DNA of 64,000 bases from Pandoraea sputorum (GTDB lineage Bacteria > Pseudomonadota > Gammaproteobacteria > Burkholderiales > Burkholderiaceae). Below are positions 11,627-32,915 of the stretch, piece after piece (position 1 is the stretch's first letter; the number at the start of each line of letters is the position of its first letter). The notes beneath the pieces are model-generated. The model made no database searches. It worked only from the letters and a program-made list of their open reading frames with translations, and was not told where the DNA came from. The DNA lies in assembly GCF_000814845.2 (NCBI RefSeq), contig NZ_CP010431.2, forward strand, positions 1,178,001-1,242,000, given 5' to 3'. The position numbers were made by a program, and so were the translations under genes.

Positions 11627-11702
11627 TCGAATGAATCTCCGGGAAAGCGGGCAGAAGTTATCGGGCGCAGTCGTGGCGCATCAGCACATTCATTGGCGGA
11701 CA

Positions 11703-13082: not shown

Positions 13083-13336
13083 GCACGGTACCTCGGGAGG
13101 ATGGGAGTGGAGAAGTGGCCCCTGAGTCCGCCCAGAATAGGCCACCGTGTCATCCCATTAAAGCCGTGCCGAAAAGGGAGGTCATCCTACGAACCGATGG
13201 AGAGGGCACGCGATGTGTCCTGCGATGTGCACGGTGTTGCGACGTGCGGCGCAGCGTTCGGGTTGCCCGCGCAGCACATCATCCACAGTCCATCGCGGCA
13301 ATCATCCGCAGACATCCGCAGACCCGCCGACTGCGC

Positions 13337-14722: not shown

Positions 14723-14817
14723 GGGACGTCTCCTTGATGTCGAGGAAGTGAAGCAATGAGGTGGATGGGGCGCGAATGCGTGATTGCGCGATTGTGTCGA
14801 GGCCGGTGAACCTGGCG

Positions 14818-16293: not shown

Positions 16294-16356
16294 CGGCAAT
16301 CTCCTGGCATGGCATGCGTTCGTCATGCAGAGATTGTCGGGGGCGCGAGGCCGACG

Positions 16357-16393
16357 TTTTTTCCGATCGGTGGGTGCGGACTGTGGCTTTTTT
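16357..16393 (-). promoter_or_regulatory. Phased A-tracts upstream of the aldehyde dehydrogenase
   Basis: Two runs of six A (read on the minus strand) lie at 16357-16362 and 16388-16393, 31 bp apart, about three helical turns. They sit between the Lrp-type regulator gene and the aldehyde dehydrogenase it may control. Such phased tracts bend DNA and are common at Lrp-type sites. The assignment is tentative. Confidence 0.3.
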
Positions 16394-16448
16394 CTGAGTT
16401 GACGGCGTCCCGCAGAAGAATCTTTGTGCACCGGGTGGCGCAAGCGGA

Positions 16449-16928
16449 TCAGTCCGGATCGACCCAGCCGGGAACGGCGTTGCCGTCGTTCTTGACGACC
16501 TTCGTGACGATGTACGTGAAGTAGCGCTCGATGCCGAAGTCGGCCATCAGCAGATCGTCGATGAAGCGCTGGTAATGGTCGATGTCGCGCGCGAGCACGT
16601 GCACGATGTAGTCGACGCCCCCACCCGTGGCATGACATTGAACGACTTCGGGGGCTTCGCGAAGGTGGGCTTCGAAGCGATTCATGTCGTGCGCGGTGTG
16701 TCGCGCGAGCGTGATTTCGACGATGATGCGGCTAAGCTGCACCACGCCGCTCCAGTCGACGTCGGCACGATAGCCGCGAATGACGCCTGCCGTTTCGAGT
16801 CGTTGCACGCGCTCCCACGTGGGCGATACGGACAAGTGAATCAGTTCGGCCAGACGTGACTTGGTCATGCGACCCTCACGGGCCAGCACCTGAAGAATTG
16901 CGATGTCGAAGCGGTCGAGTTTCACCAT
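16449..16928 (-). CDS. Lrp/AsnC-family transcriptional regulator (DoeX-like)
   Basis: A 159-residue regulator with an N-terminal helix-turn-helix (MTKSRLAELIHLSVSPTWERVQRLETAGVIRGYRA) and a C-terminal ligand-binding domain (VEITLARHT, CHATGGGVDYIVHV). This family senses amino acids or related catabolites. Position between a DoeB-like deacylase and DoeC/DoeD-like genes matches DoeX/AsnC of ectoine utilisation clusters. It probably regulates the genes around it, but the ligand is unknown. The deacylase gene ends 56 bp upstream. Confidence 0.88.
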   Translation of the reverse strand: MVKLDRFDIAILQVLAREGRMTKSRLAELIHLSVSPTWERVQRLETAGVIRGYRADVDWSGVVQLSRIIVEITLARHTAHDMNRFEAHLREAPEVVQCHATGGGVDYIVHVLARDIDHYQRFIDDLLMADFGIERYFTYIVTKVVKNDGNAVPGWVDPD

Positions 16929-16984
16929 GGGGGCAGCACCGGAAGGGACGGACGGTCAGGCAAACCTTCGGGTCCTGCGGCGCG

Positions 16985-18028
16985 TCAGACCTGCACGTCG
17001 GCCAGGACACAAAGCATGTCGCCCATGCCGACGCGACCCGGGAAATGTCGGCCGATCAGCATACCATCGCGCGCCGCGCGGTATTCGACCGGGGCGGTGC
17101 CTGTGCGTGTCACGTCGTGAATGTGTGCGACGACGTCGCCGCGCCGCACCATTGCACCGAGATCGTGACGCATCTCCAGCAAGCCGCCATGCTCGCACGT
17201 CACATAGCAGTCGTCGTCCGGCATGGAGAGCTGGACGACCGGCGTGTCGGGGGCCATGACAGCGCCGTCTCGCCTTGCGACATCGGCAGCCACGATACCC
17301 GCCTGCACCAGCACGCCGTACACGCCGCGATGCGCAATCGCGACGCTCTGCGCGCTGGCCGTCCCACCGCCGCCGAGCTCTGTCGTCACGAACACTTTGC
17401 CCTGTGCTTCGGCGGCCGTGTCATAGAGCCCATGCGGATCGGTGTCGCGCATGCGCAGCGAGTACGGGGCGCCGAACGCCTGCATTGCGGCTTCGGCACG
17501 TGCCTGTTGCGCCACATCGGCCAATTCGTGGATCGCCGCGAACGGCAGGAAATCGAGCGTGCGGCCGCCAGAATGAATATCGACCACGATGTCCGCCAAC
17601 GGTAGCAGGCAGCGCGAGAAATAATCGGCGATGCGTTCGGTGACGGTACCGTCGGCGCGCCCCGGGAACGCACGATTGAGATTGCCGCCGTCGAGCGGCG
17701 ACGTGCGCTTTCCCGCAAGCAGGGCGGGCGCATTCATGAACGGCACGACGATGACGGTGCCGTTCACGTCAGGCGCCTTTAACGCGTTCGCCAGTCGTGA
17801 CAAGGCAATCGGGCCTTCGTATTCGTCGCCATGATTCCCGCCGGTGAATAAGGCGACCGGGCCGTCGCCGCGACGGATCACGGTGATCGGAATCATGACG
17901 GCCCCCCAGGCACTGGCATCGGTCGAGTGAGGCACCTTCAGGAAGCCATGCTGAACGCCTTCCCGATGGAAGTCGACGGTGGGATAAACGCGCGGCGGCT
18001 GCGCGTGCGCATCGTGATCGCGGTGCAC
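16985..18028 (-). CDS. DoeB-like N-acyl-amino-acid deacylase (AstE/AspA family)
   Basis: A 347-residue zinc-dependent deacylase of the succinylglutamate desuccinylase/aspartoacylase family. The zinc motif GGNHGDEYEG, the second ligand in DIHSGG and the catalytic glutamate region TTELGGGG are all present, and the C-terminal beta domain is complete. DoeB in ectoine degradation removes acetate from N-alpha-acetyl-diaminobutyrate. The start is assigned to GTG 18028 with a GGGGG stretch upstream, because the much longer frame is a shadow of the dehydrogenase gene. It follows that gene by 2 bp. An ectoine hydrolase (DoeA/EutD) gene is absent from the window, so the substrate may differ. Confidence 0.82.
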   Translation of the reverse strand: MHRDHDAHAQPPRVYPTVDFHREGVQHGFLKVPHSTDASAWGAVMIPITVIRRGDGPVALFTGGNHGDEYEGPIALSRLANALKAPDVNGTVIVVPFMNAPALLAGKRTSPLDGGNLNRAFPGRADGTVTERIADYFSRCLLPLADIVVDIHSGGRTLDFLPFAAIHELADVAQQARAEAAMQAFGAPYSLRMRDTDPHGLYDTAAEAQGKVFVTTELGGGGTASAQSVAIAHRGVYGVLVQAGIVAADVARRDGAVMAPDTPVVQLSMPDDDCYVTCEHGGLLEMRHDLGAMVRRGDVVAHIHDVTRTGTAPVEYRAARDGMLIGRHFPGRVGMGDMLCVLADVQV

Positions 18029-18030
18029 GC

Positions 18031-18975
18031 TCAATACCCCCGCGCCAGATCGACGTTGCCGGGAATGCGCCCCGTCGCGCGGAAATTCCGCAGATTGGCG
18101 GCAATGACGGCCGCCGCCGTTTCGTGATCGGTCGGCGCGGAGATGTGCGGCAACACGGTGATCGACGGGTGGTCCCATAGCGTCGACGTCACCGGCAGCG
18201 GCTCCGCGTCGAAGACATCGAGCACGGCATGCGAGAGATGCCCCCGGTCGAGCGCCGCGATCAGGGCGTCGGTCACGACGACAGGACCTCGCGAGAAGTT
18301 GATGAGCGCGGCCCCCGGCTTCATCAGATTCAGACGCCGGCCGTCGAGCATGCCACGCGTCTGGGCCGTCAGCGGAATCAGGCTCACGACGATGTCGCTT
18401 GCGGCGAGCATCGCCTCGAGTCCGTCGTCTCCGGCAAGGGTTTCGATGCCGTCGAGCGCCTTGGGCGAGCGACTCCAGCCTCGAACGGTAAACCCGGCAT
18501 CGCGCAGCCTTGCGGCAGCCGCCTGACCGAGTTCGCCGAGCCCGAGTAAGCCGACGCTTGTTTGCGAAGGCTTGCGATACGCTTGCTGCCGCCATTCGTG
18601 CCGTGCCTGCTGCTTCGCGTAACGCGGCATGTCGCGTTGCAGGTAGTAGGTCCAGGCAAGCACGGCCTCGGCCATCGTGCGAGACATTTCCGGATCGATC
18701 AGCCGCATGATCGGCGGGCTGCCTGCCGGTAGCGTGCTGACGAGCGATTCGACTCCGGCCCAGAGACTCTGGATCCACAGAAGGCCGGGAAGACAGGAGA
18801 TGTCGGCCGGGTCCGGATTCGCGACGATGGCAACCGACACCTGTTCGCGCTGGCGGCTCGAAAGCTCGGCGAGCGGCGCGACGATGTCGCCCGGCAGTGC
18901 CGCACGCAAGGCGTGCAGATAGGGACGCTGATAGTCGGCGGACATCCGGCTAAGGAAGGCAATGACGGGCGGCAT
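18031..18975 (-). CDS. D-2-hydroxyacid dehydrogenase (GhrA-like)
   Basis: A 314-residue NAD(P)-dependent dehydrogenase related to glyoxylate/hydroxypyruvate reductase A. The Rossmann motif GLLGLGELGQAAA is followed by the family catalytic residues: Arg in NFSRGPVV, Glu in FDAEPLP and His in LPHISAPT. It would reduce a 2-oxo acid such as glyoxylate or oxidise the 2-hydroxy acid. The ATG at 18975 gives the expected length; the longer frame covers the preceding gene. It lies 11 bp downstream of the PF06684 gene and 2 bp upstream of the deacylase, so the three form one operon. Confidence 0.86.
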   Translation of the reverse strand: MPPVIAFLSRMSADYQRPYLHALRAALPGDIVAPLAELSSRQREQVSVAIVANPDPADISCLPGLLWIQSLWAGVESLVSTLPAGSPPIMRLIDPEMSRTMAEAVLAWTYYLQRDMPRYAKQQARHEWRQQAYRKPSQTSVGLLGLGELGQAAAARLRDAGFTVRGWSRSPKALDGIETLAGDDGLEAMLAASDIVVSLIPLTAQTRGMLDGRRLNLMKPGAALINFSRGPVVVTDALIAALDRGHLSHAVLDVFDAEPLPVTSTLWDHPSITVLPHISAPTDHETAAAVIAANLRNFRATGRIPGNVDLARGY

Positions 18976-18986
18976 CGTGTGCTCGC

Positions 18987-19580
18987 TCAGGCGGTGGCGG
19001 CTGCGTCGTTCGCCATCTCTTCCATGTCCTGGAAGCGGTCGGCGATACGCGGGTGTACACGACCGCCGTCTGCCGCACCGATGGCCAGCAGAATTTCGTC
19101 GGCGGCCGGTGCGTCCGTCATCTGAAACGTGGCGGTGATGAAGTGCGAGCGTTTGCCCGTTTCCGACTTGTGGATCATCGGCACGGACACCAGCGCGCCG
19201 GGGCCGACGCGCGTGTTGGTGAAGGGCAGGAATGCCGTGCCGCTCACTGCGCTGCGGAACAGGTTGCCGAAGCGCAGCGTGTGGATGATGGCGGAGGCGT
19301 GTTCGATCTCGCCGTTGGTGCCGACGACGGCGGCCTTGCCGTAAGCCTGGACACGATCGCCGGGCATCACGTCGACGAGGCGCTGCGTCATGAGTGCGCC
19401 AAGTTCGGGCGCCAGACGAAGGATCTCGGGACGCAGGTTCTCTACGAAGCCCAGACCTGCCCACGGATTGCGAATCACGGCGGCGACGACGACGGTCGTG
19501 ACGGGTTCGGCGGCCGCCTTGCCGCCTTCACGGTAGGTCGTCTCGACAAAGGTGGCGATCTTGCGCAGCTCTTGTTTCAC
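18987..19580 (-). CDS. PF06684 'amino acid synthesis' family protein
   Basis: A 197-residue protein of the former DUF1185 family. Recognisable parts are the N-terminal VETTYREGGK, the VAAVIRNPWAG segment, VQAYGKAAVVGTNGEIEHASAIIH and a C-terminal ITATFQMTDAPAADEILLAIG. Structures of this family show a chorismate-mutase-like fold, but I know of no established reaction. The start is GTG with CAGGAGACACCC upstream. It heads the left arm and is divergent from the PucR-type regulator across 221 bp, so it is probably controlled together with the right arm. Confidence 0.8.
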   Translation of the reverse strand: MKQELRKIATFVETTYREGGKAAAEPVTTVVVAAVIRNPWAGLGFVENLRPEILRLAPELGALMTQRLVDVMPGDRVQAYGKAAVVGTNGEIEHASAIIHTLRFGNLFRSAVSGTAFLPFTNTRVGPGALVSVPMIHKSETGKRSHFITATFQMTDAPAADEILLAIGAADGGRVHPRIADRFQDMEEMANDAAATA

Positions 19581-19735
19581 GGGTGTCTCCTGTTGCGATG
19601 CAAAAACCCGCCGCGAGTGCGGCGTGGCGGTGTCGGGGAAGTGCGCTGACGGACTGGGGCGCGCGCAGCAAATATCGGAGGCTTGCGGATGAGACCCATG
19701 CTATTGCGCGGTAGGGGTGGGGTCTTCCCCTGAAT

Positions 19736-19764
19736 CGTCGGAAGATCTTTTTTTTCTTCCGACG
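19736..19764. promoter_or_regulatory. Candidate operator palindrome in divergent PucR/PF06684 promoter
   Basis: A perfect 10-bp inverted repeat, CGTCGGAAGA (19736-19745) and TCTTCCGACG (19755-19764), is separated by a 9-base pyrimidine spacer. It lies 38 bp ahead of the PucR-type regulator start and 156 bp ahead of the divergent PF06684 gene. The T-run is in the loop, not after the stem, so it does not look like an intrinsic terminator. Binding by the PucR protein is inferred from position only. Confidence 0.55.
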
Positions 19765-19801
19765 CTTTGGTGTAGATTTTCCGCAGGCAACGAGACAGAC
19801 A

Positions 19802-21685
19802 ATGCCGGAACACCACCAGCGGCTCATGGCGTTGCGCCATGTCGCCAGTCAGATCAGCAACGACGAAGACATCGAGGCACTGTTTCGCGACCTCGTGCGT
19901 TGCGCGGTGCAACAAGGCGGTTGGGATCTCGGCTCGGTCATGAGCATCGATCTCGCCCACGGCTACGGGCTCGTGATTACACGCTACGAGACGAGCATGC
20001 TGCCGCAGCACGTCGAAGACCGCTGGGAGCTTGCGACCAGTCCGTCGCTCATCGCGTTGCAGACGAACGAGCCGGTCTACATTCGCGACGCGCTCGAGAG
20101 CACGCAATTCCCCGGTTATCGGCGTGAGGCGCACGAGCGCGGCTATCGCACGGTGCTTGTGCTGCCCATGGCATCGCGCGATACGCAGGGGCACCCGATG
20201 GTGCTGACCGTTGCCTCGCGCAAAGTGCGCGACGTCGGCGACGACGATCTGACGTTCATGTCGACGGTCGTGCATCTGGGGGCAATCGCCGTCGAACGGG
20301 CGCACCGTCAGCGCGCGCAGGTCATGGCGCACGAGCGGCTGCAACGCACGCTCGAAGCGCAACGCACGCTCCTTGGCGACGTGCTCGCCGGCGGCTCGCT
20401 CGAGCAGTTGACGTCATCGCTGGGCGAGTTGCTCGGTCGGCCCGTACTCGTTATCGATTTCCTCGTGAATCAGTGGCACGCCTCGGCCTCGCCGGTACCG
20501 TCGCAAATGGACGATGCCGCCTGGGCACGATGGCTTTCCGGCGCGCAGGGACGAGAACTCGGCGGCACCGTGCGCGATGCCCTCCAGCGCTACCGACAGT
20601 CGCGTCTCGACGTGCCGCTCGGGCGGCAGTCGGGTCAACCCACCGTCAGTGCGGCCATCGAGCCCCTGAGCGTCGACGACGATCTCGTCGGCGCACTGCT
20701 CACCTTCGGTGACGAAGCACCGGGCGACCTTCAGCAATTGCTGTTGGAAAGCGCACGCTTTGCATTGAGTGTCCAATTGATGCGCAGCGTCGTGCGGTTC
20801 CGTTTCGAGACGCGCACGCTGACCGAATTATTCTTCGAAATCGTCGAGCGCCGCTGGCGCGACGAGGACGATGCGCTGGGCCGCGCTCGCCGTCTCGGCG
20901 TGGCGCTGGATGCACCGCTGCGCATGATGGTCGTCGACTATCCGGATCAACTCGGGCAAGCCGAGGTGGGGCGGGCAGCAGGTCATTTGTCGCTGGAAAG
21001 CCACAGCACGGTGGAGTTGCTGGCGCGTCAGTTGAATGTATCCCTGCATGTCGTGACGGTGGGGGGCGGGCTGGTGTGTCTGGTGCCGCAGGACAGCGCG
21101 TCGGACGATGCGGCGCTCACGCGTTTCGCCCGACGCATGAGCGAGGCATTGGCGCGCTCGCTGGGGCGTGAGCCCATCGTGGTGATGAGCGACGTGTGCG
21201 ACGGGCTTGAACCGTTGGCGCGCGAGTGGGAGCGTTGCTGGCGCATGATTCGCGTGGCGCGCAAATTTGGCCGCAGCGGGCCGCTCGATATGCCGGGGCT
21301 GGGACCGTTGCCCATGCTCATGGGCGCGGCGGATTCGTCCGACGTTCATGGCTTCGTCGATGGCACCATCGGCAAGCTGGTGGAACACGACAAGCAGTCC
21401 GGATCCCCCTATCTGGAGACGCTGGCCGCTTATCTGCGCTCCGGCTGCCGCAGTCAGCCTTGCGCCGACGCGATGGGGCTGCACGTGACGACACTGCGTT
21501 ATCGGCTCACACGCATTCAGGAACTCTTCGGCATCGACGTCGAAACACCCGAGCGGCGATTTGCGGTGGAGCTTGCGATTCACTTGCATACGCTCACACG
21601 GGGGGCGTCACCGATGGCGTCCGTGGCATCGAAGGATTCGGCGGCTGCCCCGCGCGCTGGCGCTCGCGTGGCACGGCATCCATGA
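19802..21685 (+). CDS. GAF-PucR/CdaR-type transcriptional regulator
   Basis: A 627-residue regulator. Residues about 15-170 look like a GAF sensor domain (MSIDLAHGYGLVITRYE, VYIRDALESTQFPGYRREA, VLVLPMASRD). A middle CdaR/GGDEF-like region follows, and the C-terminus carries the PucR helix-turn-helix (YLETLAAYLRSGCRSQPCADAMGLHVTTLRYRLTRIQELFGID). PucR-type proteins activate catabolic operons for purines, amino acids and related compounds on ligand binding. It is divergent from the left arm and 119 bp ahead of the flavin reductase gene, so it is the best candidate regulator of both arms. The ribosome site is weak. Confidence 0.88.
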   Translation: MPEHHQRLMALRHVASQISNDEDIEALFRDLVRCAVQQGGWDLGSVMSIDLAHGYGLVITRYETSMLPQHVEDRWELATSPSLIALQTNEPVYIRDALESTQFPGYRREAHERGYRTVLVLPMASRDTQGHPMVLTVASRKVRDVGDDDLTFMSTVVHLGAIAVERAHRQRAQVMAHERLQRTLEAQRTLLGDVLAGGSLEQLTSSLGELLGRPVLVIDFLVNQWHASASPVPSQMDDAAWARWLSGAQGRELGGTVRDALQRYRQSRLDVPLGRQSGQPTVSAAIEPLSVDDDLVGALLTFGDEAPGDLQQLLLESARFALSVQLMRSVVRFRFETRTLTELFFEIVERRWRDEDDALGRARRLGVALDAPLRMMVVDYPDQLGQAEVGRAAGHLSLESHSTVELLARQLNVSLHVVTVGGGLVCLVPQDSASDDAALTRFARRMSEALARSLGREPIVVMSDVCDGLEPLAREWERCWRMIRVARKFGRSGPLDMPGLGPLPMLMGAADSSDVHGFVDGTIGKLVEHDKQSGSPYLETLAAYLRSGCRSQPCADAMGLHVTTLRYRLTRIQELFGIDVETPERRFAVELAIHLHTLTRGASPMASVASKDSAAAPRAGARVARHP

Positions 21686-21804
21686 AAACCCTGCCGCGCA
21701 ATCGAGAGTAAATGATTTCACTTCTCCTGCGAATCGACGGAAGCTGACAAAAATGTCCTCGCATATCGTTGACCTCAACGTAATGACGTTTCGAGGTGAA
21801 CGAC

Positions 21805-22857
21805 ATGCAAGCTGTCGCCAAGCAGCGCCAGACGGCAGACGCCGCCGGCGCTACCGCTCCACTCAACCCGGGCGCTCAGTCCACACAATCCGCGAGCGCG
21901 ATTTCCGCGATCGATCCGGTCGCGCTGCGCCGCGCACTTGGCACGTTCGTGACCGGCGTCACCGTCGTCACGACGCGCGACGACGAGGGCCGCCCGCGTG
22001 GCATGACGGCGAATTCCTTCACGTCCGTCTCTCTCGATCCGCCGTTGTTGCTGGTGTGTGTCGGCAAAGGCGCGGCGAGCTACCCGGTGTTTCAGGGCAC
22101 GGAGCACTTCGCGGTCAATCTGCTGCATGACGGGCAGACCGACGTGTCGAACCTGTTCGCATCGAAGTCGGCGGAAAAGTTTGCCGCCGTGGGGCACGAC
22201 GTGGTTCACACCGGCGCCCCCGTGCTTACCGATTGCCTGACGTGGTTCGACTGCACCGTGCATGACCGGGTCGATGCGGGCGATCACGCGATCCTGATCG
22301 GCCGGATTCAGGCGTTCGGCACGAGTCCGGCGGCACCGCTCGGCTTCTGCCGTGGTCGTTATGCGCATGTGAAGGACCCGCTGCCACCGGGCTGGCTTTC
22401 GTCACACGACATGATCGTCGGCTATCTGATCGATGCCGACGGCAGCCTGCTCCTCGCGCAGGACGGCAAGGGCGGCTGGGTGCTGCCCAGCGCACCACGG
22501 CGCCTGACCAACGGGCGTCTGCCGCTGGCCGGCGGAGGCGAACTGGCGCTGGTGCCGCACGACACCTTCCTCTACTCGGTGTTCGACACCGCCGAGAGCG
22601 ATCCCGGTTACCTGATGTACCGGGCACGTCTCGCGCAGCCGCTCTCGCAGGCCGAGTTGCCGCCGCAGTTCCGATTCTTCCCGTTCGACCAATTGCCCTT
22701 CGACGACATCGCTTCGCGCGAGATTCGCTCGATGGTGCGCCGGTACGTGCGCGAGACCGCAGGCGGCCACTTCGGCATCTACATGGATTCACACGACGGC
22801 GGGCGCATCGCGATGGTGAGCGACGCGCAGCCGTGGACCCAACTCTCCCAAGTCTGA
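21805..22857 (+). CDS. Flavin reductase with C-terminal Nudix-like domain
   Basis: A 350-residue two-domain protein. Residues about 35-190 form a flavin reductase domain (ALGTFVTGVTVVTTRDDEG, GMTANSFTSVSLDPPLLLVCV, NLLHDGQTDVSNLFASK, IGRIQAFG) of the type that feeds reduced FMN to a partner monooxygenase. Residues about 200-340 resemble a Nudix fold (MIVGYLIDADGSLLLAQDG, GGWVLPSAP), but the canonical Nudix catalytic box is not visible. ATG at 21805 was chosen over GTG 21796 because GAGG lies 8 bases before it. The luciferase-like oxygenase two genes downstream is the expected partner; the pair resembles TgnA/TgnB of trigonelline degradation. Confidence 0.82.
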   Translation: MQAVAKQRQTADAAGATAPLNPGAQSTQSASAISAIDPVALRRALGTFVTGVTVVTTRDDEGRPRGMTANSFTSVSLDPPLLLVCVGKGAASYPVFQGTEHFAVNLLHDGQTDVSNLFASKSAEKFAAVGHDVVHTGAPVLTDCLTWFDCTVHDRVDAGDHAILIGRIQAFGTSPAAPLGFCRGRYAHVKDPLPPGWLSSHDMIVGYLIDADGSLLLAQDGKGGWVLPSAPRRLTNGRLPLAGGGELALVPHDTFLYSVFDTAESDPGYLMYRARLAQPLSQAELPPQFRFFPFDQLPFDDIASREIRSMVRRYVRETAGGHFGIYMDSHDGGRIAMVSDAQPWTQLSQV

Positions 22858-22872
22858 CCCTGGAGTCAATCG

Positions 22873-24384
22873 ATGCATACGACGATTCAAACGCTGGAGG
22901 GCTCTCGCCAGCAGTTGTTCATTGACGGGCAGTTCACCGCGCCGCATAGCGCCGAGTACGTGCCGAGCTATGACCCGACGACCGGCCGCCAATGGTACGA
23001 ATTCGCGCAGGCCGACGCCGTCGATGTGGACCGCGCCGTGCGCTCCGCTCAGGCCGCGCTCGTCAATCCCGCATGGCGTCGCATGACGCAGACCGAGCGC
23101 GGCAAGCTGGTGCGCAAGCTCGGCGAACTGGTGCTGGCCAACGCCGATGCGCTCGCCGCCATCGAATGTCGCGACAACGGCAAGCTGCTCAAGGAAATGC
23201 GTGCACAGATGCGCGCAATTCCCGACTCGTATCTGTATTTCGCGGGCATGGCCGACAAGCTGCAAGGCGACACCATTCCCGTCAACAAACTCGATACGTT
23301 GAATTTCAACACGCGTGAGCCGATCGGCGTGGTGGGCATGATCATCCCGTGGAATTCGCCGCTGATGATGCTGACCGGCACGCTCGCCCCTTGTCTGGCC
23401 ATCGGCAACACCATCGTGGTCAAGCCCTCCGAACACGCGACGGCGTCCACGCTCGCACTCGCGGAACTGGTGATCGAAGCCGGGATTCCGCCGGGCGTGG
23501 TGAATGTCGTGACGGGCGATGGTGTGACCACCGGCGATGCGCTGACGCGTCACCCGGGCATCGCGAAATACGTCTTCACAGGCAGCACGGTGACTGGCCG
23601 CAAGATCGCAGGCAATGCCGCGCAAAACCTCGTGCCGTGCCAGATGGAGCTCGGCGGCAAGTCGCCGCACGTGGTGTTCGGCGACGTGGATATCGAGCGC
23701 GCCGTCAACGGTGTGGTGTCCGGCGTGTTCGCTGCGGCAGGCCAGACGTGTGTGGCCGGCTCGCGCTGCTTCGTCGAGGCGTCGGTGTACGACCGCTTCG
23801 TCGAGGCGCTGGTCGAGCGCACGCGCCGTGTGCGCGTGGGGCATCCGACGCATGAAGACACGGACATCGGCCCGCTGGCGTTGGCATCGCAACTCGACAA
23901 GGTGGAGACATACGTCGCCTCCGGCGTGCAGGAAGGCGCACGCGTGGCGGCGGGCGGTCAGCGTCCCGCACGTGACGACCTCGCAGGCGGCTGGTACTAC
24001 GAGCCGACCGTCATGACGCAGGCGCGCAACGAAATGCGCTTCATGCAGGAAGAGATCTTCGGCCCGGTCGTCGGTGTGATGCCGTTCTCGGACGAGACCG
24101 AACTGATCTCGCTCGCCAACGCCACGGAATACGGCCTGGCGGCGGGTATCTGGACTCGCGACATCGACCGTGCGCTGCGCTTCGCGCGCGATGTGGAAGC
24201 AGGCACCGTCTGGATCAACACCTATCGCTCGGCCGCCTATATGTCGGCCAACGGCGGCACCAAACACAGCGGCTACGGACGTCGTGGCGGCTTCGAAGTG
24301 ATGCGCGAGTTCTCGCGCCTGAAGAACGTCGTGATCGATTACTCCGGGGCGATGCAAGACCCGTTCGTGATCCGTCTGCGCTGA
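22873..24384 (+). CDS. Aldehyde dehydrogenase (TgnC-like)
   Basis: A 503-residue NAD(P)-dependent aldehyde dehydrogenase. It has IIPWNSPLMMLTGTLAPCLAIGN, the glutamate motif MELGGKSPHVVFGD and the catalytic cysteine in AAGQTCVAGSRCFVE. GGAG lies 8 bases before the ATG, and the gene starts 15 bp after the reductase stop. In the trigonelline pathway the aldehyde (or lactol) released by ring opening is oxidised by the aldehyde dehydrogenase TgnC; the position here between reductase and oxygenase supports that role. The actual substrate is inferred. Confidence 0.85.
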   Translation: MHTTIQTLEGSRQQLFIDGQFTAPHSAEYVPSYDPTTGRQWYEFAQADAVDVDRAVRSAQAALVNPAWRRMTQTERGKLVRKLGELVLANADALAAIECRDNGKLLKEMRAQMRAIPDSYLYFAGMADKLQGDTIPVNKLDTLNFNTREPIGVVGMIIPWNSPLMMLTGTLAPCLAIGNTIVVKPSEHATASTLALAELVIEAGIPPGVVNVVTGDGVTTGDALTRHPGIAKYVFTGSTVTGRKIAGNAAQNLVPCQMELGGKSPHVVFGDVDIERAVNGVVSGVFAAAGQTCVAGSRCFVEASVYDRFVEALVERTRRVRVGHPTHEDTDIGPLALASQLDKVETYVASGVQEGARVAAGGQRPARDDLAGGWYYEPTVMTQARNEMRFMQEEIFGPVVGVMPFSDETELISLANATEYGLAAGIWTRDIDRALRFARDVEAGTVWINTYRSAAYMSANGGTKHSGYGRRGGFEVMREFSRLKNVVIDYSGAMQDPFVIRLR

Positions 24385-24420
24385 TCTCACTACACGCCAC
24401 ACTCACTGGAGACACACCCC

Positions 24421-25572
24421 ATGAAATTCTCCGTTTCGCTCAGCATGGAGCGCTTTTCGCCGCAGGACACGATGAGCGATGCCGTGCGCAACATGCTGCA
24501 CCTCGCGCGCATCGCCGACGAAGGCGGCTTCGAGACGCTGTGGACTGCCGAGCACCACACTATCGAATGCACCATCTCGCCGAATCCGTTCATCACGCTG
24601 ACGTGGCTGTCGCAGCATACCGAGCAGATTCGTCTGGGCACGGCCACCATCGTTGCGCCGTACTGGTCGCCGATCCGCCTCGCGGGCGAAGCGGCGATGT
24701 GCGACCACCTGACTGGCGGGCGCCTAGAATTCGGTATCGCCCGCGGGGCGTATCAGTACGAGTTCGATCGCATGGCCGGCGGCATTCCGCAGCAAGAGGG
24801 CGTGGCGTATATGAAGGAGCTGGTGCCTGCGGTGAAGAAGCTGTGGGAGGGCGATTACGCGCATGAGGGGCACTACTGGAAATTCCCGCTCGCGACCTCG
24901 GTGCCGAAGCCGCTGCAACAACCGCATCCGCCGATCTGGGTCGCGACACGTGACCCGGGCAGCTTCGACTGGGCCGTGGGGGTGGGCGCCAACATTCTGT
25001 CGACGCCGCTCGCGGCGCCCGTGTCCGAGGTGGCCGTGCTCGGGGAGAAATTCCGCAAGGCAGTGGCCGATCATCCGGAGCGTCCACGTCCGCGCTTCAT
25101 GATGCTGCGCCGCACGTGCGTGTACGACCGTCCGCAGGACTGGGAAGTCGCGGTGCGTCACAGCGTGGACTTCGGCCGCACGTTCGAGAACCTGATGCAG
25201 AACATCGGCTCGGTGACCAACGGATTCCCGGAGGCGGTGCCATATGAGGCCGTTGTCGGACGTGCGAACTACGATCCGGCGTCGATCCGCGAAAACCTGA
25301 TGTTCGGCACGCCCGACGAGATCGTGCGCAAGCTCGAAGTCTACGAAGCGCAGGGCGTCGACCAGTTCTGTCTCGGCCTGTCGTTCAACCTGCCGTTCGA
25401 GCTGCAAGTGAAGACGCTGCGCCTGTTCATCGATGAGGTGATGCCGCACTTTGCAGCGCGCGAAGCGCGCCGCGCTCAGGAGGCTCAGGAAGCGCAGGCG
25501 TCGCAGACCGCGCAGGCAACGCATTCGCACGCCGCCGAGCGTCCGGCGGCGTTGGCCTCGGCAGGCCGCTGA
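24421..25572 (+). CDS. Luciferase-like flavin-dependent monooxygenase (TgnA-like)
   Basis: A 383-residue LLM-class flavoprotein. Typical features are MKFSVSLSMERFSP at the N-terminus, FETLWTAEHHTIECTISPNPF, IRLGTATIVAPYWSPIRLAGEAAMCDHLTGGRLEFGIARG and a C-terminal FGTPDEIVRKLEVYEAQGVDQFCLG. This class needs reduced FMN from a separate reductase, supplied here by the upstream gene. In trigonelline degradation an oxygenase of this class opens the pyridinium ring. The last 40 residues are an Ala/Gln/Glu-rich low-complexity tail. GGAGACACACCCC precedes the start. Other ring or side-chain oxidations are possible. Confidence 0.86.
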   Translation: MKFSVSLSMERFSPQDTMSDAVRNMLHLARIADEGGFETLWTAEHHTIECTISPNPFITLTWLSQHTEQIRLGTATIVAPYWSPIRLAGEAAMCDHLTGGRLEFGIARGAYQYEFDRMAGGIPQQEGVAYMKELVPAVKKLWEGDYAHEGHYWKFPLATSVPKPLQQPHPPIWVATRDPGSFDWAVGVGANILSTPLAAPVSEVAVLGEKFRKAVADHPERPRPRFMMLRRTCVYDRPQDWEVAVRHSVDFGRTFENLMQNIGSVTNGFPEAVPYEAVVGRANYDPASIRENLMFGTPDEIVRKLEVYEAQGVDQFCLGLSFNLPFELQVKTLRLFIDEVMPHFAAREARRAQEAQEAQASQTAQATHSHAAERPAALASAGR

Positions 25573-25575
25573 CGC

Positions 25576-26502
25576 ATGGACGCGCGCGCTATGACTCAAC
25601 CTCCCGAACGTCCCGAACGTCCGGAATGTGCTGAGCGTTCCGAATCGTCTGAAGCGCCAGAGGCACCGCGTGAGCAGACGTTACAAGTGGGCGACGTCAC
25701 GCTCGCCTACCGTCTGCTCGGGCGTGGCTCTCGTGCGCTCGTTTGCATTCACGGCGTGGGCTCGTATCAGGAAGCGTGGGACGACGTGGCTGCTGCACTG
25801 GCCGACGATTTCCGCATCCTGACCTTCGACCTGCGCGGCCACGGCCGCTCGTCGCGGGTGAAGGGGCGATATGAGATCGACGACTTCGTGACCGACGTGC
25901 TGGCGCTGGCCGATCACGTGGGCTTCACCACGTTCGATCTGGCAGGCTTCTCGCTGGGCGGGCTGATTGCCCAGCGGCTTGCGCTGCTGCATCCGTCGCG
26001 GCTGCGCCGTCTGGTGTTGCTCGCGACGGTGTCGGGGCGCACCCGCGAGGAGCGTGAGCGTGTGCTGGCACGTCTTGCCGCGCTGCAAAGCGGTGAGCGC
26101 GGCGCGCATTACGACGCATCGCTCTCACGCTGGCTGACCGAGGATTTCCAGGCGAAGCACCCGGCGCGGATCGCCTACTTGCGAGAGCGCAACGCCCAGA
26201 ACGACCCGGATTGCTACGCGTCGGCGTATCGCGTGCTGGCGGAGACGGATTTCGGCGGGTTCATCGATCAGATTCGCATGCCGACGCTCATCGTCACAGG
26301 CGAAGACGATCAGGGCTCGAACCCGCGCATGGCCCGATTCATGCATGAGTGCATCGTCGGCTCGCAGCTAGCCATCCTGCCGGGCATGCGGCACTCGATT
26401 CTGGTCGAGGCGTCGGGGCAGGTGGCGGATCTGATGCGGAATTTCCTCGCCGGTGACGGCGAGAACGCGGGCGCCAGCGAAGGAGCAGGGAGCGGAGCAT
26501 GA
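25576..26502 (+). CDS. Alpha/beta hydrolase (TgnD-like position)
   Basis: A 308-residue alpha/beta hydrolase. The core begins near residue 35 (LQVGDVTLAYRLLGRG) and carries the oxyanion region CIHGVGSYQEAW, the nucleophile elbow LAGFSLGGLIAQ (serine), VTGEDDQGSNP and a late histidine in GMRHSILVE. Family members hydrolyse amides, esters or ring-opened intermediates; in trigonelline degradation a hydrolase cleaves the N-methylformamido intermediate. The first 35 residues are a Pro/Glu/Arg repeat-rich leader. The ATG is 3 bp past the oxygenase stop; a second ATG at 25591 is also possible. It overlaps the next gene by four bases. Confidence 0.84.
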   Translation: MDARAMTQPPERPERPECAERSESSEAPEAPREQTLQVGDVTLAYRLLGRGSRALVCIHGVGSYQEAWDDVAAALADDFRILTFDLRGHGRSSRVKGRYEIDDFVTDVLALADHVGFTTFDLAGFSLGGLIAQRLALLHPSRLRRLVLLATVSGRTREERERVLARLAALQSGERGAHYDASLSRWLTEDFQAKHPARIAYLRERNAQNDPDCYASAYRVLAETDFGGFIDQIRMPTLIVTGEDDQGSNPRMARFMHECIVGSQLAILPGMRHSILVEASGQVADLMRNFLAGDGENAGASEGAGSGA

Positions 26503-26876
26503 TTGTCGAAGAGCGCATTTACCGTATCCGGAACGGCTGCATGAGTCAGTACCTGAATCTCGTGCGTACTGAGGGATTGGCCATCCAGCAGCCCATTCTG
26601 GGGCATCTCGTCGGGTACTTCACGACCGATATCGGGCCGTTGAGTCAGGTGACGCATCTCTGGGCGTATCCCAGTCTGGACGAGCGGGCACGCCGGCGCG
26701 CGTCTCTCGCGCAGGACAAGCGTTGGCAGGCGTTCATTCCGCGTCTGTCCGAATTGATCGAGCAGGCAGAGAACCGCATTCTGATACCGACCGATTTTTC
26801 CCCGCTCACGGCGTTCGCGCCGCAGGCGCCCCAGGCAACTGCTGTAAAGGAATCATGGGAGAAAAGCCGTGACTGA
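26499..26876 (+). CDS. NIPSNAP-family protein
   Basis: A 125-residue dimeric alpha-beta barrel type protein of the NIPSNAP family (MIVEERIYRIRNGCMSQYLNLVRTEGLAIQQPILGHLVGYFTTDIGPLSQVTHLWAYPSLDERARR spans the core). Members are common accessory proteins of catabolic operons, with possible roles in handling reactive intermediates, but the reaction is unknown. The ATG overlaps the hydrolase stop (ATGA), and the gene overlaps the ABC ATPase gene by 8 bases, so it is fully coupled to both. Confidence 0.8.
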   Translation: MIVEERIYRIRNGCMSQYLNLVRTEGLAIQQPILGHLVGYFTTDIGPLSQVTHLWAYPSLDERARRRASLAQDKRWQAFIPRLSELIEQAENRILIPTDFSPLTAFAPQAPQATAVKESWEKSRD

Positions 26877-27915
26877 CCGACTGAGAATCGAAAACCTGTA
26901 CAAGGTCTTCGCCGACAAGCCGGCGCGTGCGCTGGCCATGTTGCGCGATGGCAAACGCAAGTCCGACGTGCTCGAAGCGCTGGGCCAGGTCGTGGGCCTT
27001 GACGACGTGTCGCTGACCGTTCCCTCCGGCGCGATCTACATGATCATGGGGCTTTCGGGCTCGGGGAAATCGACGCTTGCGCGCTGCATCAACCGGCTCA
27101 ACGAGCCGTCCGATGGCAGGATTCTGCTCGACGGTGAAGACATCTGCGCACTCGACGAACGCGGATTGCGCGAGGTGCGCCGCAATCGCATCTCGATGGT
27201 GTTCCAGCATTTCGCGTTGCTGCCGAATCGTCGTGTGATCGAAAACGTCGAGTTTGGCCTCAAGCTGCGCGGCATGCCGACGGCCGAGCGTCGTCGCCGG
27301 GCCGAGGAAGTGCTGAGCGTGGTTGGGCTGGCGCGTTGGGCATATCACATGCCGCACGAACTGAGCGGCGGCATGCGTCAGCGCGTGGGCCTCGCCCGCG
27401 CGCTTGCGACCGAAGCCGACGTGCTGATCATGGACGAGGCATTCAGCGCGCTCGATCCGCTGATTCGCACCGAGATGCAGGACGAATTGCTGCGACTCCA
27501 GCACACGCTCAACAAGACCATTCTTTTCATCACCCACGACTTTCAGGAAGCGCTCAAGCTCGGCACGCGCATCGCGATCATGGCCGACGGCCGCCTCGTA
27601 CGCGAAGGCACACCGCAGCAGATCGTGCTGGAGCCGGGGAGTGACTACGTGGCGGCGTTCACACGCGACGTCGACCGCGCGCGGCTGTTCGATGCCCGCT
27701 CGGTCATGAAGCCGCTCGATGCTGCGCGCGACCCCAATCAGCGAATCGTTTGCGTGCCATCGGACATGCGTCTGGTGGACGTCGCCGCACGCGTGCGGTT
27801 TGACGAGCCGGTAGGCGTTACCGATGACGACGGCACGTTGATCGGCGTTCTGGATATGAATCAGCTACTTGCCCGGATCGGCACCGCTGCGGGCGCAGGA
27901 GACCACCATGCTTAA
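26869..27915 (+). CDS. proV: Betaine-type ABC transporter ATP-binding protein (ProV/OpuAA)
   Basis: A 348-residue ATPase of the quaternary-amine uptake family. Walker A is GLSGSGKST, the signature LSGGMRQRVGLARAL, Walker B VLIMDEAFSALD and the switch HDFQEALKLG. The long N-terminal region (KVFADKPARALAMLRDGKRKSDVLEALGQVVGLDDVS) and the C-terminal CBS-like region are typical of ProV/OpuAA. The start is GTG at 26869. It energises import by the permease that follows with an 8-base overlap. The symbol reflects family, not proven substrate; the ligand is probably the compound degraded by this cluster. Confidence 0.9.
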   Translation: MTDRLRIENLYKVFADKPARALAMLRDGKRKSDVLEALGQVVGLDDVSLTVPSGAIYMIMGLSGSGKSTLARCINRLNEPSDGRILLDGEDICALDERGLREVRRNRISMVFQHFALLPNRRVIENVEFGLKLRGMPTAERRRRAEEVLSVVGLARWAYHMPHELSGGMRQRVGLARALATEADVLIMDEAFSALDPLIRTEMQDELLRLQHTLNKTILFITHDFQEALKLGTRIAIMADGRLVREGTPQQIVLEPGSDYVAAFTRDVDRARLFDARSVMKPLDAARDPNQRIVCVPSDMRLVDVAARVRFDEPVGVTDDDGTLIGVLDMNQLLARIGTAAGAGDHHA

Positions 27916-28864
27916 TGCCGATCAACTCGCGGTATTCCCTATCGATCAATGGATTCAGGAAGGGGTGCAGTGGATGGCGATGCACATGCGTCCGCTGTTC
28001 CTGCTGATCAAATGGCCTGTCGAGCGGTTGCTGACCTTCAACGACAGTGTGATCCACGCCGCACCGTTTCCGGTGCTCGTCGTGATCGCCTTTCTGATTT
28101 GCTGGCGCCTGGCCAGCCTGAGCGTGGCGGTGTTCAGCGCGGTGGTGTTCGTGGCGATCGCCGTACTCGGTGTCTGGAACGAGGCGATGACGACGCTTTC
28201 GCTCATCATGACGGCGATCTTTTTCTGTGCGCTTATCGGCATTCCGATCGGCATCTGGAGCGCGCGCAGCGAACGCGTTTGGCTGGTGGTGCGGCCGGTG
28301 CTCGACATCATGCAGACCACACCGACGTTCGTGTATCTCGTGCCGGTGGTGATGCTCTTCGGCGTGGGCAATGTGCCCGGTGAAGTCGCTGTGGTGACCG
28401 CCGCGATGCCGCCGCTTATCCGTTTCACGCATCTGGGGATTCGCATGGTCGAGCACGAGATCGTGGAGGCGGGGCTCGCATTCGGTGCGGACAAGCGTCA
28501 ACTGCTGTGGGAAGTGCAATTACCCCTGGCGATTCCGACCATTCTCGGCGGTTTGAACCAGACTGTGCTGACCGCGATGGTGATGTCGGTCGTGGTGGCG
28601 ATGATCGGCGCAGAAGGTCTCGGGCTGGTGGTGCTGCAGGGACTGGGGCGCCTCGATGTGGGACGTGCGGCCGTAGGCGGCATCGCCATCGTGCTCCTCG
28701 CCATGATGCTCGATCGCTTCACGCAGAAGCTTGCGAGAACGCGGCCACGCGACCAGCAGACATTCCGTGCCGTCATCTGGCGCTTGTTTCGCGGGGAGCC
28801 GAGGCGGCAAGGCGGCGCCGGTGTGGGGCCGACGACGCAGGCAGACGCGCGAGAAGCCCTCTGA
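27908..28864 (+). CDS. proW: Betaine-type ABC transporter permease (ProW)
   Basis: A 318-residue permease with several transmembrane helices and the ABC contact loop EAGLAFGADKRQLLWEVQLPLAIPTILGGLNQ. The segment VLDIMQTTPTFVYLVPVVMLFGVGNVPGEVAVV is highly typical of ProW/OpuAB. ATG at 27908 follows GCAGGAGACCACC and overlaps the ATPase stop. It forms the membrane channel for import of a betaine-like substrate together with the ATPase and the binding protein encoded 169 bp downstream. Confidence 0.9.
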   Translation: MLNADQLAVFPIDQWIQEGVQWMAMHMRPLFLLIKWPVERLLTFNDSVIHAAPFPVLVVIAFLICWRLASLSVAVFSAVVFVAIAVLGVWNEAMTTLSLIMTAIFFCALIGIPIGIWSARSERVWLVVRPVLDIMQTTPTFVYLVPVVMLFGVGNVPGEVAVVTAAMPPLIRFTHLGIRMVEHEIVEAGLAFGADKRQLLWEVQLPLAIPTILGGLNQTVLTAMVMSVVVAMIGAEGLGLVVLQGLGRLDVGRAAVGGIAIVLLAMMLDRFTQKLARTRPRDQQTFRAVIWRLFRGEPRRQGGAGVGPTTQADAREAL

Positions 28865-29033
28865 ACGCGAGCACTGACCCTTTACCGCTGAAACCCGGTT
28901 TTGCAACAAATGGAAGGCTGGCCCTGACGACGGGGTGTTGACGTCAGGGACCGGCAGCCGTGCCCGCATGCGCACGTCAGGCGGGCCGATAAATCGACGA
29001 TCCGATGGATCGAACAAGTCTTGGAGAGCAGCA

Positions 29034-30056
29034 ATGAAAGGATTGGCAAAGGCTTTCGCCTCGTTCACGCTTTCGCTCGTCGCGGCGGGTGCGTTGCACG
29101 CGCAGACGCTTCCGGGCACGGGAAAGACGATTCGCTACGCGCAGAGCGATAGCTTCGGCGGGAATTACGTCGTCGCCCAGATCGTCTCGAAGGCATTCAA
29201 GGGGTTGGGCTACGACGTCAAGCTCAGCACGATGAACACCACGCTGTTCTTCCAGGCGGTCGCGCAGGGCGATATCGATATCGCGACCGACGTGAATTTC
29301 CCGCAGCGCGAGCCGGGCTTTCGCGCCGTGGCGGCACAGGCCATGGTGGTTGGCTCCGGGCTGATTTCGGGCGATGGCATCAACGGCTATCTCATCGACA
29401 AAAAGACGGCGCTGCAATATCACATCACCAGTCTTGAGCAGATGAAGGACCCTAAGATCGCCGGACTCTTCGGCAGGGACGGCAAGGCCGAGTTGATCAG
29501 TTGCGACCCGGGCTGGAGTTGTGGCGATGTCGTCGATTATCAGATCGACAAGTTCGGCCTGAAGCAGACGGTCAAGGCGGTGCGCGGCAAGTATGAAGCG
29601 CTGATGGTCGAGGCGGTGACGAAGATCAAACAGGGCAAGCCGGCGTTCTTCTATGCGTGGAGTCCGTCGTGGGTGACGAACGCGCTCGTGCCGGGCGCGG
29701 ATGTTGTGTGGCTGCCGACGCCGGCAGACGCGCTGCCGCCGAACGTCCCGAACAAGGGCTCGGCGCTCGTGAACAACGTGGAGGGGTGTGCGGGTGGCGC
29801 GAATCCGTGCCGCATGGCGATGGCGTCGTGGAACTGGGGTTCGGTGGCGAATAAGCAGTTCGTCGCGGCAAATCCGGCCGTGAAGACGTTGATCGAGCAG
29901 ATTCGCTTCCCGGGCAAGACGTGGTCGCAGTGGGAAGCCGTCATCAGCAAGGAAGGCGGTTCTCCGGCGCTGATCACGAAACTGTCGGATGAGTGGATTG
30001 CTGCCAACAAGGCACAGATGGATCAGTGGGTGGCGACGGCGCTCAAGGCGCATTGA
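29034..30056 (+). CDS. proX: Betaine-type ABC transporter substrate-binding protein (ProX/OpuAC)
   Basis: A 340-residue periplasmic binding protein. The first 23 residues form a Sec signal peptide with cleavage after ALHA. The mature protein has DSFGGNYVVAQIVSKAF, the ligand-pocket aromatic segments CDPGWSCGD and FFYAWSPSWV, and VVWLPTPADALPPNVPN, as in ProX-type proteins that hold quaternary ammonium groups in an aromatic cage. ATG at 29034 follows TTGGAG. The 169-bp gap after the permease may carry its own promoter or a processing site. The ligand is inferred to be the betaine catabolised here. Confidence 0.88.
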   Translation: MKGLAKAFASFTLSLVAAGALHAQTLPGTGKTIRYAQSDSFGGNYVVAQIVSKAFKGLGYDVKLSTMNTTLFFQAVAQGDIDIATDVNFPQREPGFRAVAAQAMVVGSGLISGDGINGYLIDKKTALQYHITSLEQMKDPKIAGLFGRDGKAELISCDPGWSCGDVVDYQIDKFGLKQTVKAVRGKYEALMVEAVTKIKQGKPAFFYAWSPSWVTNALVPGADVVWLPTPADALPPNVPNKGSALVNNVEGCAGGANPCRMAMASWNWGSVANKQFVAANPAVKTLIEQIRFPGKTWSQWEAVISKEGGSPALITKLSDEWIAANKAQMDQWVATALKAH

Positions 30057-30117
30057 GCGATGGCATGGCCGCTCCCGCGGCCTTGCATCGATACTCAGGA
30101 CATGAGGAGAGCGTTCG

Positions 30118-30501
30118 ATGAGTTCGGAACTGTTTGAAAGAGGGCTGAAGACACGCCGTGAGGTGCTGGGCAGCGAGTATGTGGACAAGTCGATTGCCTC
30201 GGCCGATGCGTTCAATCGTCCGATGCAGGAACTGGTCACGGAGTACTGCTGGGGGGAAATATGGAACCGCCCCGGACTGGACCGGCGTACCCGCAGTCTG
30301 CTCAACCTTGGCATGCTCACCGTCATGAACCGTCCGCACGAACTGAAGTTGCACGTGCGCGGCGCGTTGACCAACGGCGTGACGAAGGAAGAAATCACGG
30401 AGGTCTTCCTGCAAGCGGCGATCTACGCCGGTGTGCCTGCAGCGATCGATAGCTTCCGGGTGGCGCGGGAGGTTTTCGATACCCTGGCCGCCGAAGCCTG
30501 A
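30118..30501 (+). CDS. PcaC/carboxymuconolactone decarboxylase-family protein
   Basis: A 127-residue protein of the carboxymuconolactone decarboxylase family, closest in length and pattern to PcaC (GEIWNRPGLDRRTRSLLNLGMLTVMNRPHELKLHVRGALTNGVTKEEITEVFLQAAIYAGVPAAIDSF). It lacks the CxxC of AhpD-type peroxidase members, so a decarboxylase or lactone-handling role fits better. GAGGAG precedes the ATG. It ends the right arm, 61 bp after the binding-protein gene. Its step in the pathway is not known. Confidence 0.85.
   Translation: MSSELFERGLKTRREVLGSEYVDKSIASADAFNRPMQELVTEYCWGEIWNRPGLDRRTRSLLNLGMLTVMNRPHELKLHVRGALTNGVTKEEITEVFLQAAIYAGVPAAIDSFRVAREVFDTLAAEA

Positions 30502-31247: not shown

Positions 31248-32915
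<1,668 letters not shown>

Follow-up and report, generated by a model that had tools for sequence, protein, structure and literature searches.

A window of 64,000 nucleotides of Pandoraea sputorum DNA (the whole stretch analyzed here, contig NZ_CP010431.2, positions 1,178,001 to 1,242,000) lies in a 5.74 Mb single-contig Pandoraea genome. It carries a plus-strand operon (19802-30501) that encodes a luciferase-like flavin monooxygenase (hereafter the oxygenase) together with a flavin reductase, an aldehyde dehydrogenase, an alpha/beta hydrolase, and a betaine-type ABC importer. A divergent arm on the minus strand (10154-19580), with genes of the kind found in ectoine operons, belongs with this operon. 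We tentatively favor the reading that the cluster performs an O2-dependent ring opening like that of the trigonelline (Tgn) pathway on an N-substituted pyridinium-type betaine other than trigonelline, quite possibly freeing 2,4-diaminobutyrate (DABA). The most informative result is the distribution of one product of the divergent arm, the aminotransferase Atf, which turned a vague guess about a betaine into a specific and refutable one.

Distribution of the oxygenase and of the ectoine-type genes

The window oxygenase (24421-25572, plus strand; PF00296, 184.5 bits) belongs to a clade sister to TgnB, which we call W, for window-type. In a tree of 40 rows, with no RutA or SsuD reference among them, the 17 window-type rows formed one clade with support of 100/100, and the TgnB rows fell in another group. 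Our TgnB anchor is a homology annotation (tgnA-tgnB-tgnC on a plasmid of Acinetobacter sp. PK01) rather than the A. baylyi protein itself; the window oxygenase is 42.9% identical to it, and a homologue from S. meliloti pSymA 72.2%. Of the 29 matched NCBIfam families of luciferase-like monooxygenases (LLMs), the 25 that were shown, SsuD and NtaA/DmoA among them and RutA outside them, all scored below cut-off (best, TIGR03619, 113.2 versus 166.9). A first-pass annotation of the window, made from its sequence alone, had likened its enzyme set to that of the Tgn pathway; the oxygenase is indeed nearer to TgnB than to any of these curated families, but it is not a TgnB orthologue. The two clades, W and TgnB, differ at 31 alignment columns, each at least 93% conserved on both sides, with several of these positions common to other clades. 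The window residues G252, L258, and G319 are Y, W, and W in TgnB, differences that would fit a wider pocket in the W oxygenase.

A survey of the family to which we assign Pandoraea, Burkholderiaceae, covered 398 genomes. W was called at an identity of at least 79%, and TgnB-like at 42-47% identity to the window oxygenase, the latter being one lumped class with more than one subclade inside (loci L124 and L125). W was found in 30 genomes, a TgnB-like oxygenase in 54, and both in 12; none of the 11 W-positive Pandoraea had a TgnB-like match.

Atf is a DoeD-type class III aminotransferase (13337-14722, minus strand). We sought it in 80 genomes, comprising all 30 that were W-positive, all 42 with a TgnB-like oxygenase only, and 8 of the 21 W-negative Pandoraea, requiring 80% identity or more to the window protein, with all further matches at 73% or below. 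Where the ectoine hydrolase DoeA was present, every genome had Atf, whether W-positive (14/14) or W-negative (20/20). Where DoeA was absent, Atf was found in 15 of 16 W-positive versus none of 30 W-negative genomes (Fisher p = 3e-11), and the difference persisted when Pandoraea was left out (4/5 versus 0/22, p = 3e-4). Among the 21 W-negative Pandoraea, Atf was lacking in all 8 that were tested. In the sole W-positive genome without it (G674, locus L127), the oxygenase, hydrolase, and regulator matches fell in more than one reading frame, indicating that the cluster has decayed there or that the sequence is faulty.

In the four Atf-positive genomes of that comparison without Pandoraea, from three further genera (G415, G551, G733, and G754), atf lies beside an ssd gene on a contig other than that of the W oxygenase, and the stretch fetched around atf-ssd contained neither DoeA nor DoeB. 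In G415 and G733, the contig extends for more than 100 kb on both sides of the W oxygenase. G551 has atf and the W oxygenase on separate contigs, 1.2 and 2.5 Mb long, whereas the two contigs of G754 are each shorter than 20 kb, too short to judge how near the two genes are. We conclude that Atf goes with either DoeA or W, and that linkage by itself does not account for this.

The first-pass annotation had called for an N-methylated substrate. GMAS (TIGR03105, which we take to be a methylamine-assimilation enzyme) was over cut-off in 1/18 genomes with W only, 8/12 with both oxygenases, and 19/42 with a TgnB-like oxygenase only (W only versus TgnB-like only, Fisher p = 0.003 with Pandoraea included). 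None of the 11 W-positive Pandoraea had it over cut-off; methylamine could be excreted. This absence, and the company that the cluster keeps with diaminobutyrate enzymes, make an N-methylated substrate doubtful.

In ectoine degradation, DoeA is the ectoine hydrolase, DoeB the N-acetyl-diaminobutyrate deacetylase, Ssd (DoeC-type) a semialdehyde dehydrogenase, and Atf the aminotransferase. The ectoine operons of Caballeronia grimmiae and Burkholderia multivorans run eutB - cyclodeaminase - doeA - doeB - lrp - ssd - atf (the last three are also named asnC-ssd-atf). Four genes of the Pandoraea arm, all on the minus strand, keep the order doeB-lrp-ssd-atf. They encode DoeB (16985-18028; TIGR02994, 487 versus a cut-off of 402.7; 66% identical to the ectoine-operon protein), an Lrp/AsnC regulator of ectoine-operon type (16449-16928; 64-68%), Ssd (14818-16326; 75-78%), and Atf (81%), the last three compared with Caballeronia and Burkholderia. 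DoeB, AsnC, Ssd, and Atf of ectoine degradation are all represented, whereas DoeA and EutB/C are missing and the genes are joined instead to those for a DUF1185 protein and GhrA and to the oxygenase operon. The best match to DoeA in the window's own genome scored 43 bits versus a cut-off of 613, and DoeA was found in 0/32 Pandoraea genomes at E up to 1e-60. By gene order and identity, the arm is the 3' portion of an ectoine operon, without DoeA. DoeB was over cut-off in 9 of the 32 Pandoraea, all of them W-positive; most likely it either has an accessory role or was left over from the source ectoine operon.

We also scanned named genomes, keeping the best 80 of 207 loci (oxygenases 71-99% identical) and counting genes by best-hit BLAST with trimmed queries; the GhrA and DoeB counts thus rest on trimmed proteins and not on over-long open reading frames (ORFs) that read into neighboring genes. 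The W oxygenase was present in 80/80 loci, the reductase and hydrolase in 79/80 each, the PucR-type regulator and the DUF1185 protein in 78/80 each, and the aldehyde dehydrogenase in 76/80, and some of the missing core genes fall at contig ends (e.g., L044 and L061). NIPSNAP was found in 44/80, a carboxymuconolactone decarboxylase (CMD) protein in 38/80, Lrp in 32/80, and GhrA in 31/80. This gene set is far from a chance association. The loci come from Pandoraea, Caballeronia, Paraburkholderia, Bosea, Mesorhizobium, Rhizobium, Azospirillum, and others, spanning several proteobacterial orders; the nearest named relatives of the window oxygenase are from Pandoraea (93-99% identical), and 60 plasmid records carry the W clade at E up to 1e-120.

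Genes of ectoine type recur around the W cluster. Loci L041, L077, L081, and L085, out of the 80, have eut, doeA, and doeB genes close by. On R. etli p42f, ehu-eut-doe genes flank one side of the cluster, and the other side has genes for Lrp and for Ssd-like and Atf-like proteins. Genes of the latter two kinds also border the cluster in loci of Rhizobium, Ensifer, Methylocapsa, and Agrobacterium, and an Atf-like gene does so in Bosea. In Paraburkholderia fungorum, DoeB (543 versus a cut-off of 402.7 bits) is encoded within the plus-strand operon, after a second ProX.

Proposed pathway and rival explanations

By analogy with trigonelline, opening of an N-substituted nicotinate followed by oxidation and hydrolysis would yield CO2, formate, succinate semialdehyde, and the amine that carries the ring nitrogen. 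From the observed gene content, oxygenase clade, conservation, and Atf association, we infer the reactions, the amine, and the substrate as follows. ProVWX would import the compound, and the flavin reductase would give reduced flavin to the luciferase-like oxygenase, which would open the ring. The aldehyde dehydrogenase would oxidize the ring-opening product and the hydrolase would then split it, freeing DABA in place of methylamine. Atf and Ssd would convert DABA to aspartate, and GabD would oxidize the succinate-semialdehyde half. With DABA as the amine, the enzymes of the Pandoraea arm would have roles, save GhrA, the DUF1185 protein, and the second aminotransferase.

Our leading guess for the substrate is nicotianine, N-(3-amino-3-carboxypropyl)nicotinate, which is the amino-acid homologue of trigonelline and counts as a pyridinium betaine as well as an amino acid. 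By analogy, Tgn chemistry would turn it into succinate semialdehyde, formate, CO2, and DABA, and the ectoine-type half would carry DABA on to aspartate; we hold this exact identification to be rather doubtful. A ligand that is both betaine and amino acid might explain why some lineages have a betaine-type importer and others an amino-acid type. Among the literature matches listed for homarine, trigonelline, pyridine, and nicotianine, the titles and the starts of the abstracts did not describe the cluster.

Several points weigh against the proposed pathway. Most of the Pandoraea points in the Atf test represent one linked locus, the genomes tested are related and the statistics ignore kinship, and the identity threshold for Atf was set after the gap in identities was seen. 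When Pandoraea is left out, the GMAS contrast is not significant (1/7 versus 19/42, p = 0.22), and in the sole W-only genome with GMAS (G423) the gene is 18 kb from the W oxygenase. The scheme leaves GhrA and the second aminotransferase without a role, and Atf-type enzymes may accept other omega-amino acids. DoeB is near the W oxygenase in 12/80 named loci, thus not in most, and only a remnant of it is present in two other W-positive Pandoraea (L009, equated with genome G450 by matching coordinates, and L128, cut from genome G469), where lrp, ssd, and atf matched at normal length beside the doeB fragment. An Atf-like gene was within 10 kb of the W oxygenase in 9/80 loci, a count made on cut flanks, most of which stop before Atf in Pandoraea. 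Finally, no aldehyde dehydrogenase was found between reductase and oxygenase in 4 of the 80 loci (L033, L035, L036, and L037).

The first-pass annotation had offered trigonelline as a substrate. Because TgnB falls in a separate, well-supported clade, trigonelline is unlikely, and Shinella sp. WSC3-e carries both oxygenase types; "trigonelline-like" was right for the kind of machinery and is probably wrong for the substrate. That the cluster is a second, diverged trigonelline pathway seems very unlikely to us, even though it has the same enzyme classes, has the DUF1185, CMD, and NIPSNAP families in common with Tgn clusters, and includes in its clade several database proteins that their sources named trigonelline monooxygenase, a name given to 0/120 listed TgnB-clade matches. 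TgnB is 43% identical and in the other clade, the W and TgnB-like oxygenases co-occur in 12 genomes and so are not mutually exclusive, GMAS is not over cut-off in the 11 W-positive Pandoraea, and the classes of regulator and importer differ from those of Tgn clusters. Homarine (N-methylpicolinate) or another N-methylpyridinium carboxylate, its ring opened in the same manner, with methylamine excreted and the ectoine-type genes as neighbors because both substrates are osmolytes, is unlikely, though less so. A betaine-type importer would suit it, a clade sister to TgnB makes a different isomer plausible, the W and TgnB-like oxygenases occur together in 12 of the 30 W genomes (side by side in the Shinella strain), and the GMAS gene of G423 can be counted for it. 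Against it, the Atf association outside Pandoraea does not depend on physical linkage, and by analogy homarine would yield 2-oxoglutarate, with no need of an aminotransferase or a semialdehyde dehydrogenase. Moreover, the named hosts look, by name, to be mainly soil and plant bacteria, and section 8 of one paper considers activity of the Tgn oxygenase on homarine improbable (PMC8269262).

About as unlikely as homarine, in our view, is a DABA-bearing substrate that is not a pyridinium, such as a cyclic amidine of ectoine type or a metal chelator from plants (e.g., nicotianamine), from which the oxygenase would cleave a C-N bond. The repeated neighborhood with ehu, eut, and doe genes and the amino-acid-type importer of rhizobia speak for it. 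However, the Tgn core of aldehyde dehydrogenase, hydrolase, and DUF1185 protein is kept in 76-79 of the 80 loci, and the NtaA/DmoA family of LLMs scores 44 bits versus a cut-off of 279.7. In addition, DoeA accompanies W in 14 of the 19 non-Pandoraea genomes that are W-positive, which argues that W is not simply a replacement for the ectoine hydrolase; for the same reason ectoine itself is unlikely as the substrate. Somewhat less probable still is that the ectoine-type arm is a decaying remnant outside the pathway and the Atf association an accident of relatedness. Such decay would fit the absence of DoeA from all 32 Pandoraea and the doeB remnants of L009 and L128, but not an Atf without internal stop that is 94-99% identical in ten other W-positive Pandoraea, nor the lack of Atf in the tested W-negative Pandoraea, nor the aminotransferase and dehydrogenase that persist without DoeA, on contigs apart from W, in the four genomes of three further genera.

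If the release of DABA is correct, two separately known pathways have been recombined as front end and back end, soil bacteria have a new source of diaminobutyrate, and the distribution of Atf, with either the ectoine hydrolase or the W oxygenase, is a ready marker. The testable prediction is that a pathway of wide occurrence, associated with plants and soil, cleaves a heterocyclic ring and passes a diaminobutyrate unit on to enzymes hitherto tied to ectoine. The label "trigonelline monooxygenase" given by automatic annotation, meanwhile, splits into clades with different partners.

Genes of the two arms

The first-pass annotation had described a catabolic operon on one strand, behind a PucR-type regulator and with the enzyme classes of the Tgn pathway, and this was borne out: ORFs placed all the named plus-strand genes with the strand and order given, and Pfam and NCBIfam confirmed their families. 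The regulator (19802-21685) has GAF, GGDEF-like, and PucR helix-turn-helix domains (PF13556, PF17853, and PF13185). The gap behind it, put earlier at 119 bp, is 110 bp to the first GTG of the flavin reductase gene, the larger figure depending on the start codon chosen. The reductase component (21796-22857; PF01613) has near-full-length similarity to PDB 3rh7 and is followed by the TgnC-like aldehyde dehydrogenase (22873-24384; PF00171) and the oxygenase. The PcaD-like alpha/beta hydrolase (25576-26502; PF00561) stands in the place of the Tgn hydrolase; PcaD-type NCBIfam models score best with it, yet below cut-off. Overlapping the hydrolase gene is that of a NIPSNAP family protein (26499-26876; PF07978), 53% identical to its counterpart in the Tgn-type cluster of S. 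meliloti.

The importer consists of a ProV-type ATPase (26869-27915; PF00005; TIGR01186, 332 versus a cut-off of 326.6), a ProW-type permease (27908-28864; PF00528; PRK10952, 329 bits, below the cut-off of 439), and a ProX-type substrate-binding protein (29034-30056; PRK11119 in NCBIfam, 381.7 versus 215 bits). For ProW we took the ATG at 27908 as the start, the ORF being open from a TTG at 27869; the reported gap of 169 bp ahead of the ProX start codon was confirmed exactly. The aromatic box of E. coli ProX, which we take to be W65/W140/W188 of PDB 1r9l, aligns with F89/W161/W209 of the window protein, such that two of its three positions are kept. Together with the NCBIfam score, this agrees with the betaine-type receptor and importer proposed earlier. 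Across 63 aligned ProX proteins, the window's included, W161 and W209 are each found in 54, the other 9 being gaps, and the third position is F in 46 and never W. Among the 80 named loci, 44 have ProX, 33 a polar-amino-acid receptor, and none both; neither receptor was found in L036 and L057, loci that are cut off close to the cluster.

The last gene of the operon encodes a PcaC-like CMD protein (30118-30501). Its TIGR02425 score is just under the PcaC cut-off (154.7 versus 155.7) and it has a 60% identical relative in the Acinetobacter tgn cluster; we therefore rejected a plain PcaC role and read it as part of the module. A cpn60/GroEL gene (31269-32915, plus strand) directly follows the operon.

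Coordinates of the minus-strand genes use chosen start codons. Nearest the operon is the gene for the DUF1185, or "amino acid synthesis" family, protein (18987-19580; PF06684, 219.7 bits), 54% identical to that of the Acinetobacter tgn cluster, followed by a GhrA-like 2-hydroxyacid dehydrogenase (18031-18975; PF02826). Beyond doeB-lrp-ssd-atf lie the second class III aminotransferase (11703-13145; PRK05965; NF004625, 839 versus a cut-off of 729) and a GabD-type succinate-semialdehyde dehydrogenase (10154-11626; TIGR01780, 631.8, just under the cut-off of 646.4). GabD is 51-53% identical to the succinate-semialdehyde dehydrogenases of the Acinetobacter and S. meliloti Tgn-type clusters (51% to that of the tgn cluster). 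Between the divergent arms, at 19733-19767, is an inverted repeat with 13-nt arms, 92% complementary, that is a candidate operator. The motif is kept in 7 of 8 named Pandoraea loci, with a weaker form in the eighth, and in none of the non-Pandoraea loci compared; in certain other genera, shorter half-sites of the form TCTTCC/GGAAGA turn up repeatedly.

Comparison with known catabolic clusters

The Tgn pathway of A. baylyi (tgnABCDE) uses a two-component flavin oxygenase, the aldehyde dehydrogenase TgnC, an alpha/beta hydrolase, and a succinate-semialdehyde dehydrogenase. In the public annotation of Acinetobacter sp. PK01 the oxygenase is TgnB and the reductase TgnA, and a figure legend likewise names the oxygenase TgnB (PMC11354265); relative to these, the first-pass annotation had the two labels swapped. 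W and Tgn clusters have the DUF1185 protein, hydrolase, reductase, oxygenase, and aldehyde dehydrogenase in common. When aligned with the PK01 tgn cluster, the window's reductase is 33%, its aldehyde dehydrogenase 43%, and its hydrolase 29% identical (the Acinetobacter protein being annotated only as an alpha/beta hydrolase), and all three lie in one operon. The oxygenase, at 43% and in its separate clade, is no orthologue of TgnB, and the succinate-semialdehyde dehydrogenase is matched by GabD, but on the opposite strand, in the divergent arm. The PK01 cluster also holds DUF1185, hydrolase, succinate-semialdehyde dehydrogenase, and CMD genes, and the S. meliloti Tgn-type cluster has NIPSNAP; the NIPSNAP and PcaC-like proteins are thus not the extras they had been taken for. 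In PK01 (L116, 1-6400), folate and sarcosine-oxidase-like genes adjoin the tgn genes, an arrangement that fits trigonelline yielding methylamine and formate. The plasmid oxygenases that are 42-46% identical to the window protein include that of the S. meliloti pSymA cluster, which lies between noeB and nifB; according to the title of a 1991 paper, as cited in PMC12489286, genes for trigonelline catabolism are located in the pSym symbiotic region.

Further cluster types contain related oxygenases. On Parasedimentitalea marina pW43B (L117) and Aminobacter sp. SR38 pSR3 (L118), an LLM of a third clade, 49% identical to the window protein, occurs with the aldehyde dehydrogenase, hydrolase, and DUF1185 protein, but the partners differ in including RidA, an enoyl-CoA hydratase, a 3-hydroxyacyl-CoA dehydrogenase, and a 3-keto-5-aminohexanoate cleavage protein. 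No Atf or Ssd was found in the stretch inspected of these two clusters, whose content suggests a further pathway, for a ring compound or a betaine, that is linked to CoA chemistry. A cluster on Arthrobacter crystallopoietes pLDW-10 (L089), with a distant LLM (31%), a PucR regulator, CMD, flavin reductase, aldehyde dehydrogenase, BCCT transporter, and amidohydrolase, is an actinobacterial analogue. In genome G728 (contig C161; L123 and L124), a W cluster and two different TgnB-type clusters lie within ~26 kb, possibly forming a heterocycle-catabolism island, and L125 holds the two TgnB-type clusters without a W cluster.

What sets the W type apart from the Tgn type is its control, transport, and partners. 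The Pandoraea W cluster has a PucR-type regulator whereas Tgn clusters have GntR, and W clusters use ProVWX or a polar-amino-acid importer whereas Tgn clusters use an NCS1 permease or another ABC type. The W type is tied to Atf, and more weakly to GMAS than is the Tgn type.

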